The notes under the pieces: model-generated
Database searches by the model: none
What the model was told of the DNA's origin: nothing
Seen by the model: the letters and a program-made list of their open reading frames with translations, nothing else
Made by a program: the position numbers and the translations under genes
Shown: positions 28,928-44,200 of the stretch, in pieces
Layout: each line of letters begins with the position of its first letter
Numbering within the stretch: the first letter of the stretch is position 1
NCBI RefSeq assembly: GCF_003352005.1
Contig: NZ_CP024848.1
Span: 381,001-445,000, forward strand
DNA: 64,000 nucleotides
DNA from: Oceanobacillus zhaokaii
Lineage (GTDB): Bacteria; Bacillota; Bacilli; Bacillales; Amphibacillaceae
Direction: 5' to 3'

Positions 28928-29458
28928 TTAAATTAATAAGAAGCGGATTACTCCAATAATCGCAAAGCAGAATAGAGATGTACCAGCAAGGGGACCTGTA
29001 ATCGCGCTATTAGGAACTTGTAACTTTTTCGATAATGGTAAAGAAATGAATGAGATCCCAATAAGAAGAGCTGCTAATATATATAAACTAGCGTCTTGGA
29101 AAATGTCCTTCAACCAAATGAAATGAATACCTACAATAAAAGCAATCCATGGGGCAACAAAATTACTGCGTTTAAATTTAATTAAGAAGAAGGCGCCAAT
29201 CCCTGCTAAAGAGAATTCGAGAAAAAGAAAAATTAAATAGTTTTTGTATGCGGCTGAATCTGCTAAGGCTGAAGAGCTATGCCAATGGGTTGCACTTAAA
29301 TAAATGCCAACGATACCAACGACAAGGGCGATACCGGAAGCAATCCCAAGATACTTCCGCCAGCTTTTCCTTGGATTTTCCTGAGCCCAGCCAAACCAGC
29401 ACATACTAAACATCCCAAAGATGGCTGTATACATCGCATAATCTCTAATATATTCCAA
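28928..29458 (-). CDS. Conserved-looking membrane protein, function unknown
   Basis: A 176-residue protein with about five or six hydrophobic segments (for example residues 10-25, 38-58, 75-95, 103-120, 128-145, 158-175) and no recognisable catalytic motif. I do not recognise the family. The start is TTG, with GAGGAGG 7 nt upstream. It lies about 100 bp downstream of the LytTR/DUF3021 pair on the same strand and could be a target of that module. A hairpin terminator abuts its 3' end. Confidence 0.55.
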   Translation of the reverse strand: MEYIRDYAMYTAIFGMFSMCWFGWAQENPRKSWRKYLGIASGIALVVGIVGIYLSATHWHSSSALADSAAYKNYLIFLFLEFSLAGIGAFFLIKFKRSNFVAPWIAFIVGIHFIWLKDIFQDASLYILAALLIGISFISLPLSKKLQVPNSAITGPLAGTSLFCFAIIGVIRFLLI

Positions 29459-29558
29459 TAATATTCCTCCTCATTAATTCTTAGAGTTCAGTACTTCGAT
29501 AACTAACAGTAGAAGCAGCTAATATTTATTTTGGAAAGGGAAAAATCCCTGGCGAATG

Positions 29559-29960
29559 TTAAAGTTCCGCGTTTAGTTTTTTCGCTTCCTTTTTAAAATA
29601 AAGATAGAAGCACAACCAAATAATTGAATACACAATAAGAAATAATCCCAGTATTAATAGAATGGTTGGAAAACTAAATGGGATCCAGCCAATTCCTAAA
29701 GATAAAACAAAGTAGCATGCAGCTACGGTAATAAAGTGTAATGCAGTTTGAGTGGGAAGCTTTAGCGAATCAATTTCAAAATATAGTGGTGATACCGAGA
29801 AAAACCAGCCGCAAAAGATGGAACCGAGTGAATTTCTAAGAAACATTTCACCTTCTAACTGTTTAATACCACCAAAATAAATAATACAAATGGTGATCGC
29901 AATTGCTACGAATGCGCCAAAAAAGATACCGATTAAGCTTCTAATTAGAAAGGTTTTCAT
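29559..29960 (-). CDS. DUF3021 family membrane protein
   Basis: A 133-residue protein with four membrane helices and a short basic tail (FKKEAKKLN), the pattern of DUF3021. DUF3021 genes typically follow a LytTR regulator gene, as here, where its ATG touches the end of the regulator gene. The protein is thought to sequester or modulate the partner regulator at the membrane; that is inference from the family. No other motif is visible. Confidence 0.72.
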   Translation of the reverse strand: MKTFLIRSLIGIFFGAFVAIAITICIIYFGGIKQLEGEMFLRNSLGSIFCGWFFSVSPLYFEIDSLKLPTQTALHFITVAACYFVLSLGIGWIPFSFPTILLILGLFLIVYSIIWLCFYLYFKKEAKKLNAEL

Positions 29961-30415
29961 TAATTATTCCTCCGTTTCATTTTTAATGCTTCTTTAATAG
30001 TTGGTACATAATGCCTCGAGACATATTCCTTCACTCCAGATTTGAAGTATACGCAGAGGGTGCCATTAAATGAAGCTTCGAATCGACTAAGTTCATAAAG
30101 GTTTGCAATTACTGATTTAGAAAGCCGGATAAACCTTCTGGATGAGAGTACTTTTTCCAGCTCATAAAGCTTTTCTTTCATTATAAATTCTCCATTCGAT
30201 GTGACTGCAATTACGTTATCTTCTTTGGAATAAAAATAATGAATATCTGCTGGTTTAAGAATATGCTGCATATCCCCATCTTTACCGACAAAAAATTCCT
30301 GTTCTCTCCCTTTGAAAAAATCAAGAATTTCCTGAATTGATTCATCGATTTCCTTGCACTGAATCATTACAGTAGTTTCTTCGTAATCATTATCAATATC
30401 AAGTGATATTTTCAT
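29960..30415 (-). CDS. LytTR-domain transcriptional regulator
   Basis: A 151-residue stand-alone LytTR protein without a receiver domain. The DNA-binding part covers about residues 50-148: IHYFYSKEDNVIAVTSNGEF, LEKVLSSRRFIRLSKSVIANL and VSRHYVPTIKEAL. The downstream DUF3021 gene overlaps its stop by one base; such pairs act as membrane-controlled regulators, often of transport genes. ATG at 30415 has GAGGAGG 7 nt upstream and is preferred over a TTG six bases earlier. Confidence 0.8.
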   Translation of the reverse strand: MKISLDIDNDYEETTVMIQCKEIDESIQEILDFFKGREQEFFVGKDGDMQHILKPADIHYFYSKEDNVIAVTSNGEFIMKEKLYELEKVLSSRRFIRLSKSVIANLYELSRFEASFNGTLCVYFKSGVKEYVSRHYVPTIKEALKMKRRNN

Positions 30416-30421
30416 AAGCAA

Positions 30422-30940
30422 CCCTCCTCTTTGTTTCTGTAATGTTATTGTATTTGTTTTCCACTATTCTGTCTTTATTTACTAAGGAAGAGGCAGATAA
30501 AGAAGGGTAACTTGCGTTTATGCATTTACAAAATGCAGTGGTTACTGGATGAATTGGCTGTTGAAAGCGGATTAAAGTTATGGTAAGCTTAACTTAAATT
30601 TAATGAAATGGAGGTTTTCCTAATGGCATCTATCAGACTTCGTTTACAATCTTTGAAATACGTTAACTGAATACGTTCAGGAGGCTCTGTTTGTGCTGCA
30701 GGGTAAACGGGATTAGTCTGCCTTTTATTAGGAAACCTTTTAAATACGTGATGTTTAAAAAGAAGGGGAGTAGTCTACCTTCTTTTTTGCTGTCTAAAAA
30801 AATAAGGGAACGAAGAATTGCCAATCACATTGTGAAGGCATATTTTGATCCAATTATCATTGGATGAATTTGATTTCCCGTTTACGTGGTGCACAGGCAG
30901 AGGTCTGTGTTTTTTTATGTAAAAAAATGGAGGGATAATT
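30422..30940 (+). promoter_or_regulatory. hflX leader region with terminators (attenuator)
   Basis: The leader contains a 15-codon ORF (30623-30670), a terminator-like stem AAAAGAAGG/CCTTCTTTT ending in six T (30757-30788), and a second stem CACAG/CTGTG with TTTTTTT (30889-30917) just before the hflX ribosome-binding site. The leader-ORF start region AGGTTTTCCTAAT (30612-30624) can pair with ATTAGGAAACCT (30727-30738). GTAAACGGGA (30703-30712) can pair either inside the leader ORF (CGTTTAC, 30641-30647) or downstream with TCCCGTTTAC (30876-30885). These alternatives fit ribosome-controlled attenuation. No convincing promoter was identified. Confidence 0.65.
30623..30670 (+). CDS. Putative hflX leader peptide with RLR macrolide-arrest motif
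   Basis: The reading frame encodes MASIRLRLQSLKYVN (15 residues) with GGAGG 8 nt before the ATG. Arg5-Leu6-Arg7 is a +x+ motif like the RLR of the ErmD leader (MTHSMRLR...), at which macrolide-bound ribosomes stall. The codons CGT TTA C overlap a segment that can base-pair in the leader RNA. The frame, the Shine-Dalgarno and the motif are seen directly; drug-dependent arrest is inferred. Confidence 0.65.
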   Translation: MASIRLRLQSLKYVN

Positions 30941-32221
30941 ATGGAAAATAAAGCAATATTAGTTGGTGTTAACTTAAATAAACAAAAGCATGATTTTCAA
31001 TACTCAATGGAGGAATTAGAAAATTTAGCTATTGCCTGTAATATCATAACGGTTGGGAATGTAACGCAAAATCTGAATCGGATAAACCAAGGGCATTACA
31101 TTGGTTCAGGGAAAATAGAAGAGCTAAAGGAAATGGTAGAAGAAACGGGAGCAGATACAATCATTTTTGATGACGAGCTATCTCCATCACAAATTCGGAA
31201 TTTAGAATCAGTCATACCGGATTGTGAAGTTGTTGATCGCACTACGTTAATACTTGAGATTTTTGCCAAACGTGCGAAGACGAGGGAATCGAAATTACAA
31301 GTAGAGATTGCGCAATTAAGATATCGCCTTCCAAGATTGATTGGCAGCCGTGAGTCATTAGGGCGCCAAGGTGGCGGGTCAGGGCTGAATAACCGTGGTG
31401 CTGGTGAGACGAAATTAGAGATGGATCGTCGGAAAATTGAAGAACAAATAGCGAAGTTAAGCAGGGAATTAGAGCATTTAGTGAGCCAGCGAAAAATGCA
31501 AAGGCGGAAGAGAGAAAAAAATGAGATTCCTGTTGTATCTCTTGTAGGCTATACGAACGCAGGTAAATCAACGATGATGAATGCAGTGTTAGAATTCTAT
31601 AATGAGGAAAAGGATAAACAAGTATTTGAAAAGAATATGCTTTTTGCGACGCTGGAAACCTCTGTTAGAAGTGTAACACTAGGAACGAATCAAACCTTTT
31701 TACTGACGGATACGGTAGGGTTTATTAATAAATTACCACATCACCTTGTCAAAGCATTCCGTTCTACACTAGAAGAAGTGGCAGAAGCGGACCTATTAAT
31801 ACATGTAATAGATTTATCCAATCCACACCACGCAGAGCAGCGGCAGCTTACGAACGAAATATTAGAGGAGATTGGCATAGAAGGTATCCCGGTAATTCAT
31901 GCATATAATAAGGTGGACTTACTGGAGGGAAATTATCCATTGGTCGATGGCAATAATGTCTATGTTTCTGCGAAAAATAGACAGGGTATGGAGACATTAA
32001 CGGAACAAATCAAGCAACAAATTTTCAATGATTATGTGCGATGCGAATTGCTTATACCATATACAGATGGTCAAATTGTCTCCTATTTTAATGAACGTGC
32101 GGACGTTTTGGAGGAAGATTTTGCACCAGAAGGAACAAAATTAGTGGTTGACTGTAAAAAAGCGGATGCAGAAAAATTCCAAGAATTTATTACACATATA
32201 TATAGGAAGGAAGGAGAATAA
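30941..32221 (+). CDS. hflX: GTPase HflX
   Basis: A 426-residue HflX. The N-terminal nucleotide-binding domain covers about 1-105, followed by a coiled-coil linker (IEEQIAKLSRELEHLVSQRK shortened to this core near 165-190). The GTPase has G1 GYTNAGKS (203-210), G3 DTVGF, G4 NKVD and the Gly-rich loop GGGSGLNNRGAGETKLE. HflX splits stalled or stressed ribosomes, and in Listeria it contributes to macrolide/lincosamide resistance. A leader with a small ORF and terminators precedes it. The stop overlaps the start of the macrolide phosphotransferase remnant (TAATG), so the two formed an operon. Confidence 0.9.
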   Translation: MENKAILVGVNLNKQKHDFQYSMEELENLAIACNIITVGNVTQNLNRINQGHYIGSGKIEELKEMVEETGADTIIFDDELSPSQIRNLESVIPDCEVVDRTTLILEIFAKRAKTRESKLQVEIAQLRYRLPRLIGSRESLGRQGGGSGLNNRGAGETKLEMDRRKIEEQIAKLSRELEHLVSQRKMQRRKREKNEIPVVSLVGYTNAGKSTMMNAVLEFYNEEKDKQVFEKNMLFATLETSVRSVTLGTNQTFLLTDTVGFINKLPHHLVKAFRSTLEEVAEADLLIHVIDLSNPHHAEQRQLTNEILEEIGIEGIPVIHAYNKVDLLEGNYPLVDGNNVYVSAKNRQGMETLTEQIKQQIFNDYVRCELLIPYTDGQIVSYFNERADVLEEDFAPEGTKLVVDCKKADAEKFQEFITHIYRKEGE

Positions 32222-33117
32222 TGTCATTGGATAAAGAGAGAATTATTGAAATTGCAAATAGGCATGGAATTCTTGTATTAAAGGATTTATTGAAATTCAA
32301 TTAATCCGGGATGGATTTTCAAGTTGTCTTTGCAACGGATTTAGAAGGAGGGAACTGGGTATTAAGATTTCCTAGACGTGCTGACGTTATTCCTACAACT
32401 AAGAATGAGAAATTAATCTCGGTTTGGTAAGGCCAAACATTTCCATTCAATCACCGAACTGGATTGTTTTTCTAAGGAATTAATTGCTTATAAGCTTCTA
32501 AAAGGAATTCCGGCTGGAACAATCGATCCAGAAGCTCAGGCTTATGTATGGGAAATTGATGAGAAGAACATTTCAGATAACTACTATGAATCAATAGGAC
32601 GTGCGATGGTAGAATTACATGCAATCAATCATAGCGAAGCGAAGCAGGTGGGGTTAACTGTCTTAACACCAGAAGAAATAAGAAAAGCGATGATTAATAG
32701 AATGGAAAACGTGAGAGCTAAGTTCGGTGTGAATGACGAGTTATGGGGGCGTTGGTAGAACTGGGTCGAAACTGACATCTTATGGCCAGAACGTACAGCT
32801 TTCATTCATGGAGACTGCATCCAGGTCATATTTTAATAGTCAAGAGCAGCGTGTAACAGGGTTTATTGACTGGACAGAGGCACGTGTAGACGATCCGGCT
32901 CATGATTTTGTATCCCACCTAATGGCATTTGGAGAAAAATCATTAAGAGAATTAATTGGCTGCTTATGAAAAATCGGGAGGTTATGTTTGGCCTGCAATG
33001 TTTGAACATATTGTAGAGTTACAAGCCACGTATCCTGTAGGCATCGCTGAGTTTGCAATAAAATCTGGATTACTAGATATGGAAGAAATGGCGAAGGAAA
33101 CGCTTGGTGTAAGGTAG
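32221..33117 (+). pseudogene. Decayed macrolide 2'-phosphotransferase (mph) gene
   Basis: Starts ATG overlapping the hflX stop, with AGGAAGGAG upstream. Reading across frames gives a near full-length macrolide kinase of about 298 codons: [70 protein letters not shown] and GFIDWTEARVDDPAHDF. Damage seen: in-frame TAA at 32302-32304, a shift near 32420, another near 32470, TAG after GRW near 32757, shifts after FIHGD and after the DWTEA-containing segment (near 32968). The catalytic HGDLH is broken to HGDC. Flanking genes are intact, which argues against poor sequence quality. Related Bacillus Mph enzymes inactivate macrolides with GTP. Confidence 0.85.
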
Positions 33118-33684: not shown

Positions 33685-35258
<1,574 letters not shown>

Positions 35259-35436
35259 AATATTCGGAACGCTATCTTTAAGATAGTAAGGACATACATG
35301 GTTGTTTGGTTCAGTTTTGAGAGAGCAAATCTCTCATTTTATACTTTGTACCTTGAAAACTAAATAAGAGTAACAACGACATCAATTTTAAAAATTAAAG
35401 CAAGGCTAATAAATTAGTACGCTTATTTACTAACTT

Positions 35437-38352
<2,916 letters not shown>

Positions 38353-38422
38353 AAATTCTTATTTGATTGTCGTTGACCATTACTCTTATTTAGTTTTTAG
38401 GGTACAAACCTAAATATAGTTG

Positions 38423-38538
<116 letters not shown>

Positions 38539-38544
38539 TAAGTA

Positions 38545-38583
38545 AAAACACTAAGAATATGATTCATATTCTTAGTGTTTTTT
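38545..38583 (+). terminator. rrn operon 1 terminator
   Basis: AAACACTAAGAATATG / CATATTCTTAGTGTTT perfect stem followed by T-tract; identical after operon 2. Confidence 0.92.
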
Positions 38584-39280
38584 GTGTTTAAGAAGTCTCT
38601 ACTGCATATCTGATTCCTTACCTTTGGTGTACCAAGTAGATCAAAGCACTTAATTTATTTGACTAACTTTATTAATATTTCTAACAGATTTAAATAGATT
38701 GACTGAGAATATGGAACGGTTTCATTCAGCGGTTGCTCCACAATAAAAGGGGTAATTGTTTATATACATCAATTTGTCAGTAGAAAGTCCATTATTCTCA
38801 TTAGCTTCATAAGATAGGAACAGGAGAACATCAGTGTCGATGGAAAAAGTTTAAAAAGGTTATTGACATATCACCATAATAAGAGTAATATAAATTCTGC
38901 TGTTAAAAAAGTGTTGGTTATACTAAATAGATAAACAGTTTATACAAATCATTTCTTCATCTAGGTAAACAAATCTAGTAAGCAATTAAACAATGAAAAA
39001 GTTGTTGACATTCACATGAATGGATGATAAGATATAAAAGTTGTCGCAAAAAACAACGAGAAGTAATTTTAAAAAAGTTGTTGACAACAAAATGCGATAC
39101 GTGATATAGTAATAAAGTTGCTTCTGAAGCAACAGAACATTTGCTCTTTGAAAACTGAACAAAACAACCAGTATGTCAACGAAAAGAAACGTGTTTTCTT
39201 TTCAATAAAACAAGAAGGTAACACTTCTTAAAGCTAAGACATTATATGAAATTGATTGGTGTCAATTTCATTTCAAACAC
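38584..39280 (+). promoter_or_regulatory. Spacer between rrn operons and rrn operon 2 promoters
   Basis: The first 280 bp (38584-38862) are AT-rich and show no gene. Then three promoters mirror operon 1: TTGACA 38863-38868/TAATAT 38886-38891, TTGACA 39005-39010/TAAGAT 39028-39033, TTGACA 39081-39086/TATAGT 39105-39110, followed by the same boxA-like leader. So each operon can be transcribed independently. Confidence 0.8.
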
Positions 39281-44014
<4,734 letters not shown>

Positions 44015-44084
44015 AAATTCTTATTTGATTGTCGTTGACCATTACTCTTATTTAGTTTTTAGGGTACAAACCTAAATATAGTTG

Positions 44085-44200
<116 letters not shown>

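Follow-up and report, generated by a model that had tools for sequence, protein, structure and literature searches.

In the window analysed here, a stretch of 64,000 nucleotides of the Oceanobacillus zhaokaii genome, an hflX gene stands behind a structured leader that holds a 15-codon upstream open reading frame (uORF), MASIRLRLQSLKYVN, preceded by a Shine-Dalgarno (SD) sequence, which raises the question of whether and how this leader controls the gene. The answer developed below is that the leader is very probably a ribosome-arrest transcription attenuator, predicted to switch hflX with a macrolide-type drug. Direct reading and terminator scans bear out the original prediction as far as the parts are concerned, namely a 15-codon frame with an SD and two terminator-like stems before hflX. 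Likewise, the codons around the Arg-Leu-Arg (RLR) motif can pair with 30703-30720, and the second partner of this latter strand is CCCGTTTAC, at 30877-30885. The coordinates first proposed also hold, with the exception of the start at 30612, which falls within the SD. The parts are the following.

30561-30589, forward strand: promoter-like element, TTGAAA, 17 nt and TAAGCT, with TG before the second hexamer
30610-30614, forward strand: SD of the uORF, GGAGG, read directly and kept in relatives
30612-30626, forward strand: 5' strand of helix P0, comprising SD and start codon (swap test, fold and pair counts)
30623-30670, forward strand: uORF MASIRLRLQSLKYVN including its stop, with ATG at 30623 and TGA at 30668-30670
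30634-30647, forward strand: 5' strand of helix H1, comprising the arrest codons (swap test, fold and pair counts)
30635-30643, forward strand: Arg-Leu-Arg codons AGA-CTT-CGT, the predicted arrest site, within H1
30667-30680, forward strand: small hairpin across the uORF stop, in the place of helix P1 of relatives
30685-30703, forward strand: hairpin P2, whose 5' arm and loop are complementary to the 5' arm of T2
30703-30722, forward strand: switch strand E2, GTAAACGGGATTAGTCTGCC, of which 30703-30720 is the 3' strand of H1
30725-30738, forward strand: 3' strand of P0 (swap test, fold and pair counts)
about 30761-30788, forward strand: terminator-like hairpin T1 with U run, absent from the stricter terminator scan
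30877-30885, forward strand: pre-T2 segment CCCGTTTAC, complementary to GTAAACGGG of E2 (covariation p=0.0015)
30891-30916, forward strand: second terminator-like hairpin, T2, with U run; also detected by the stricter scan
30941-32221, forward strand: hflX, intact, 426 aa, hflXr-type second copy (TIGR03156, 448 bits)
about 32221-33114, forward strand: mph remnant, its frame broken in several places (four collinear tblastn pieces)

Several observations bear on whether this arrangement could be due to chance. Among the ten short ORFs that follow an exact GGAGG on either strand of the 64 kb, only the uORF encodes RLR. Besides, R1, a covariance model built from relatives and the window leader and trained solely on 38 hflXr leaders, finds a single strong site in the 4.10 Mb genome (121 bits), the next-best site reaching 23 bits at an E-value of 0.1. 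The 351-nt leader folds better than its shuffles (z -3.3, with 0/100 as good), as does the 130-nt element (z -2.3, 5/200 as good); for 30668-30795, which is what remains once the uORF is covered, folding is no better than in shuffles (z -0.65, 54/200 as good). No Rfam 15 family reached its gathering score in the whole window, and the same result was obtained for eight loci searched at E up to 1. In terms of transcription start, the promoter-like element scores 8/12 plus the TG and is weak taken alone, since another candidate at 30525 scores equally; it is not in the stricter scan of the window. Across the family of leaders introduced below, promoter scores of at least 10 are found in 49 of 98 leaders, compared to 6.3% of shuffles.

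The gene behind the leader belongs to the second-copy type known as hflXr. The host genome, a single contig, carries two HflX genes above the family cut-off, and when the window HflX was compared with 159 genomes of the family, 13 matches exceeded 500 bits while the remainder reached 295 at most. The closest named relatives are those of Oceanobacillus chungangensis (91% identical) and O. arenosus (87%). Extending the comparison to 397 genomes of the order gave matches with an E-value no higher than 1e-100 in 55 of them, five at only 46-54% identity. The union of the family and order matches defines an hflXr-type set of 65 loci, 60 of them at least 56% identical. An SD-preceded uORF encoding R[LIFQ]R lies upstream of 43 of these 65 genes (43/60 of those at least 56% identical, including both L097 and L098, two hflXr loci of the family), with RLR in 34 leaders, RIR in seven, RFR in one and RQR in one. 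By the same test, none was found at 18 canonical HflX loci (17 relatives and the copy of the same genome). The expectation that the frame would be kept in relatives retaining hflX was thus borne out for the hflXr type, and this conservation, together with the experimental precedent of Listeria hflXr, largely supports the attenuator reading.

However, the leader accompanies hflXr without being universal, as 22 of the 65 hflXr-type genes (17 of the 60 with an identity of 56% or more) have none, and R1 stays at noise level on the 40 loci made up of these 22 and the 18 canonical ones (best 15.6 bits). In the leaderless genes (L130, L131, L137-L140, L145, L147, L155-L158 and L162-L171), regulation may have been lost or may be exerted by another control. 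The motif +x+ by itself is uninformative, since relaxing the SD rule brings up +x+ uORFs, of non-RLR type, before 9 of the 18 canonical genes as well. Separately, five Sporosarcina loci (L014, L015, L016, L018 and L019) hold a conserved ORF of 27-28 codons with [VI]RLRF, some 50-150 nt before hflX, which may represent a further leader or belong to a different element; R1 has no match at E up to 1 in the Sporosarcina hflX loci L013 and L014.

How the leader could work as a switch was examined in A2, an alignment to R1 of 98 leaders less than 90% identical, of which 97 are distinct (L128 and L213 being one locus). The OFF fold consists of four nested helices: P0 pairs the SD and start of the uORF with the 3' end of the element, H1 pairs the arrest codons with GGGATTAGTCTG, P1 of the relatives pairs the codons TTGAAC with a GTTCAA located after the stop, and P2 is a hairpin, the only one of the four that R1 encodes. 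For 30609-30738 of the window, the fold of minimum energy comprises P0 (30612-30626 with 30725-30738), H1 (30634-30647 with 30703-30720) and P2, while P1 is replaced by the small hairpin at 30667-30680. RNAalifold on alignment A1 found only P2, and misses the other helices because P0 shifts register between lineages; a swap test and pair counts were therefore used. In the swap test, native and swapped energies were -11.1 and -6.0 kcal/mol for P0, -11.9 and -9.6 for H1, -6.4 and -4.0 for P1, and -8.7 and -7.6 for P2, the native pairing lying below the mean of its own swaps in 90, 88, 88 and 80 of the 98 leaders, respectively. As a control, four pairings that were not proposed gave a better native value in 0.46-0.55 of swaps, one of them at p=0.04. 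In the pair counts over the 97 distinct rows, 19 of 23 pairs are changed on both sides, and 128 double-change cells were counted against 49.6 in shuffles (0/500 as high) and 41-66 with the partners slid. These counts hold the columns of P0 and P1 fixed, with 68% of P0 cells paired, and thereby underestimate both helices.

The ON fold is mutually exclusive with this arrangement and is likewise supported in silico by covariation. A terminator-like hairpin lies within 150 nt after the element in 78 of the 98 leaders compared to 23 of 490 shuffles, and at least one precedes the gene in 81, the simple script used detecting none before the gene in the other 17. For the ON-fold tests, the looser settings of this script also accept weak hairpins (L093, L095, L126, L127). 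With this permissive finder, a second hairpin, most commonly beginning CACAGGC, was located well beyond E2 in 42 of the 43 hflXr leaders. The 5' part of E2, GTAAAYGGG, is complementary to the pre-T2 segment: in 38 distinct hflXr leaders, the native pairing reaches -12.0 kcal/mol against -10.1 swapped and -6.7 shuffled (p=0.0015), and lies below its own swaps in 28 of the 38. In the same line, the 5' arm and loop of P2 pair with the 5' arm of T2 at -12.5 kcal/mol against -6.1 shuffled (swap p=6e-4) in 68 of the 98 leaders, this being observed both in 31 hflXr leaders (-13.8 against -6.4) and in 37 others (-11.5 against -5.8). E2 was also considered as an antiterminator of T1. It is more complementary to the 5' arm of T1 than shuffles are, yet covariation is absent (native -9.16, swapped -9.46, p=0.4, 58 leaders), and this pairing is kept as unproven. 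Some leaders carry additional material: that of L093 an extra few hundred nucleotides from its T2-like hairpin to hflX, that of L095 an extra segment from E2 to T1, and those of L090 and L091 a common stretch with inverted repeats near T2.

From these parts, the following mechanism can be proposed. Without drug, the ribosome would complete the 15-codon frame and depart, P0 (SD and start) and H1 (arrest codons) would pair with 30703-30738 and hide the SD and start of the uORF, and T1 and T2 would form, ending transcription upstream of hflX. If a macrolide occupied the exit tunnel, the ribosome would arrest at Arg-Leu-Arg, cover the 5' strand of H1 and reach into P0. Given a ribosome footprint of about 30 nt and the toeprint offset of 15-16 nt described for tlrB, the leading edge of the arrested ribosome is predicted near 30653 and its rear edge at the start codon, at the edge of P0. 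That offset comes from B. subtilis, where the toeprint is described 15-16 nt downstream, with the middle +x+ residue occupying the P site and the final Arg the A site (excerpts of PMC6851288). Since the arrest would cover the 5' strand of H1 up to the edge of P0, E2 and P2 would be freed for the ON pairing; E2 and the P2 arm could then pair with the pre-T2 segment and the 5' arm of T2, blocking T2. Transcription, having presumably also passed T1, would extend into hflX (formerly hflX-mph), and HflX may then split stalled ribosomes.

It is possible, though rather unlikely, that the attenuator is real while it responds to another drug of the tunnel or peptidyl transferase (a lincosamide or a ketolide), or to any early-elongation stall, rather than to macrolides specifically. 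According to excerpts of PMC6310831, lincomycin induces the transcript of hflXr in Listeria more than erythromycin does, the B. subtilis tlrB peptide, with RYR, arrests with tylosin and not with erythromycin in those of PMC6851288, and five of the 114 elements described below precede a group whose tested member is an LmrB-like lincomycin pump. However, R-x-R is the strict part of the peptide, and most of the downstream groups (mph, erm, Msr-type ABC-F and Mef-like) are macrolide-resistance families.

Much less probable is a role of the peptide as a bystander, in which the conserved codons would serve the H1 and P1 pairings and the terminators would be read through by other means, such as a general slowing of translation, without peptide-specific arrest. 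H1 and P1 do covary across leaders, so that codon conservation has an RNA explanation. In addition, although a uORF in frame with the arrest site and no longer than 26 codons is present in 92 of the 98 representative leaders (absent in the other six) and 79 show +x+ at the aligned place, 19 do not, some of which have it one codon away (L175, L248, L254). Against this reading, R-x-R stays constant in the 43 hflXr leaders while the middle residue and the codons vary, and mutation of the start codon of the RLR uORF abolishes induction in Listeria (as given in excerpts of PMC6310831).

In terms of the neighbouring gene, the original prediction of an hflX-mph operon was only partly upheld: the pair is found with a full-length mph in ten relatives, whereas mph is broken in this genome, where one of the tblastn pieces matches the Mph families. 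An mph follows 12 of the 43 leader-bearing hflXr loci (the ten, the window and L091, in which a 53-residue remnant is left) and none of the 22 leaderless ones. With mph broken, the switch would now serve hflX alone, and the system may be decaying. That the leader is a mere relic, the switch dead and hflX silent or constitutive, as the broken mph here and the remnant in L091 could suggest, is nevertheless highly improbable, as the uORF, SD, P0, H1, P2, E2, pre-T2 segment and T2 are intact in sequence, hflX is open, and 31 of the 43 leader-bearing hflXr loci have no mph anyway.

The window leader, read as a macrolide-responsive attenuator, closely resembles systems known from other bacteria, which are compared here as described in excerpts of the respective papers. 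In Listeria monocytogenes, hflXr (lmo0762) was found with mutants to be attenuated through a 14-aa RLR uORF, the attenuator being named rli80 (PMC6310831). Both loci concern a second HflX copy with a short SD-preceded RLR uORF (14 aa there, 15 here) and terminator/anti-terminator alternatives, which in the window are in silico with covariation for both states. By description, the window locus differs from rli80 in its genus, its two terminators, its P0/H1 fold and the mph remnant downstream. Besides, uORFC-6-1, an in silico RLR motif of the Bacillales with 51 representatives primarily before hflX, also places an RLR uORF inside a covarying structure (PMC8632094), and is very likely the element of the window leader, as far as text descriptions can be compared. 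In the excerpts, however, that motif lies entirely downstream of the start codon, whereas P0 of the window includes SD and start, and it stands primarily before hflX, whereas the window element type also precedes six other gene groups (PMC8632094).

The window leader also shares its peptide type with the leaders of erm(K)/erm(D), mef(E) and msr(A), whose peptides read M-x-x-[S/A]-M-R-L-R, transcription attenuation being described for erm(K) and mef(E) (PMC4335068). Unlike in ErmK/ErmD-type leaders, the downstream gene is hflX and not erm; 18 Erm-group leaders match R1, the comparison with the published erm(K) being made by peptide description. In one comparison (PMC4335068), no homology beyond the peptide was seen when the regulatory region of mef(E) was set against that of erm(K). 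Finally, tlrB (yxjB) of B. subtilis also has a +x+ arrest peptide controlling terminator readthrough, but this peptide counts 9 aa and ends in RYR, control involves NusG pausing and sequestration of the main-gene SD, and no overlapping antiterminator is reported in the excerpts of PMC6851288.

Whether the element is confined to hflXr was assessed by running R1 on 398 genomes of the class, which yielded 114 elements in 101 genomes at E up to 1e-3, four of them being training loci (window, L090, L128 and L133). The downstream gene was taken as the first ORF of at least 150 aa, a threshold lowered to 70 aa for ORFs running off the end of the stretch. It is hflXr for 28 elements, mph for 22, ABC-F for 22, erm for 18, an MFS pump for ten, an RlmA/TlrB-like methyltransferase for seven, an LmrB-like pump for five, and ungrouped for two. 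In other words, 86 of the 114 elements precede genes other than hflXr, while 112 precede genes grouped with resistance families. The groups were formed by blastp single linkage, with 12 members rather than every member named by NCBIfam: Mph (2), Msr-family ABC-F (2), a more general ABC-F (L281), Erm, Mef-like (2), a Tet(A)-like pump in the MFS group (L243), 23S rRNA G745/G748 methyltransferase, LmrB-like and, for L270, a short-chain dehydrogenase. At L270, the element before this dehydrogenase, outside the resistance groups, scores 54.6 bits, and at L208 the element precedes a frame outside all gene groups. The attenuator originally predicted for hflX-mph is not special to hflX.

The R1 match reflects more than the peptide, since the untranslated P2-E2 part is conserved across groups, with a mean identity to the hflXr consensus of 76-88% in the six other groups against 26-27% for shuffled sequences; the window leader is 80% identical to the mph leader of L175. 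When the 98 leaders are placed in a tree, 32 changes of gene label are required, against a minimum of seven and a shuffled mean of 55.8. Starred branches group leaders of erm and mph together (L204 with L215) and call for no fewer than four label changes for mph and three for erm. This tree, built on 126 columns, is poorly resolved and its bootstrap not settled, and it was used only for the fact that labels are not clades. The pattern points to clustering by gene together with repeated exchange, without an order of events.

Beyond the class, 17 of 398 genomes drawn from the phylum have a match, ten of them outside the class. The family is far-reaching yet does not cover every RLR leader: an element of 96 bits precedes a Mef-like gene (annotated in two pieces) and msr(G) on a Metabacillus dongyingensis plasmid, whereas R1 is weak on staphylococcal msr(A) (14.9 bits) and, at E up to 1, misses both streptococcal phage mef(A) and Acinetobacter msr(E). 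On a Paraclostridium bifermentans plasmid (L300), a Mef-like MFS gene is followed by hflX, with no R1 match at E up to 1. An Enterococcus dispar plasmid (L297, 1287-1411) holds a diverged leader relative of 20.5 bits with the peptide MTASMKLRNEFLNS, in which P2 is missing and which stands before an Msr-like ABC-F frame.

Taken together, these data suggest that this attenuator of about 130 nt is probably a portable macrolide sensor, placed by recombination before at least seven unrelated gene groups and operating through one two-state fold in which the arrest codons and the SD and start of the uORF would act as anti-antiterminator. The mechanisms it would serve are likely ribosome splitting, drug phosphorylation, ABC-F protection, Erm- and RlmA-type rRNA methylation, and Mef-like and LmrB-like efflux. 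In 13 of the 101 genomes two elements occur, each pair before two different gene groups, and these probably form a small cis-regulon. The proposal of a portable sensor with a covarying two-state fold is computational throughout. Use of the leader element by gene families besides hflX was not found in the open-licence PMC papers searched, among which a single one names uORFC-6-1; what is new here is the module shared across gene families, the window leader itself being a well-supported case of a known attenuator type. Inducible macrolide resistance has so far been described gene by gene. Should a single RNA family in Bacillota govern the genes for Erm, Mph, Msr-type ABC-F, Mef-like, RlmA/TlrB-like, LmrB-like and HflXr proteins, the sensing of a drug and the means of resisting it would evolve as separable modules, and the RNA model could be used to detect drug-response genes that are as yet uncharacterised. 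With the strands that covary in each state named, the mechanism lends itself to direct testing.

As regards the rest of the neighbourhood, ARAGORN found no tRNA gene in the 64-kb window. Upstream of the leader, at 28928-30421 on the minus strand, three small genes are divergent from hflX, in an order also found in L009 and L010; one of them (29960-30421, minus strand) has a weak LytTR-type match. Directly downstream of the mph remnant, two tandem rRNA operons occupy 33686-44200, and a Bacillaceae-1 RNA is located at 40937-41004.
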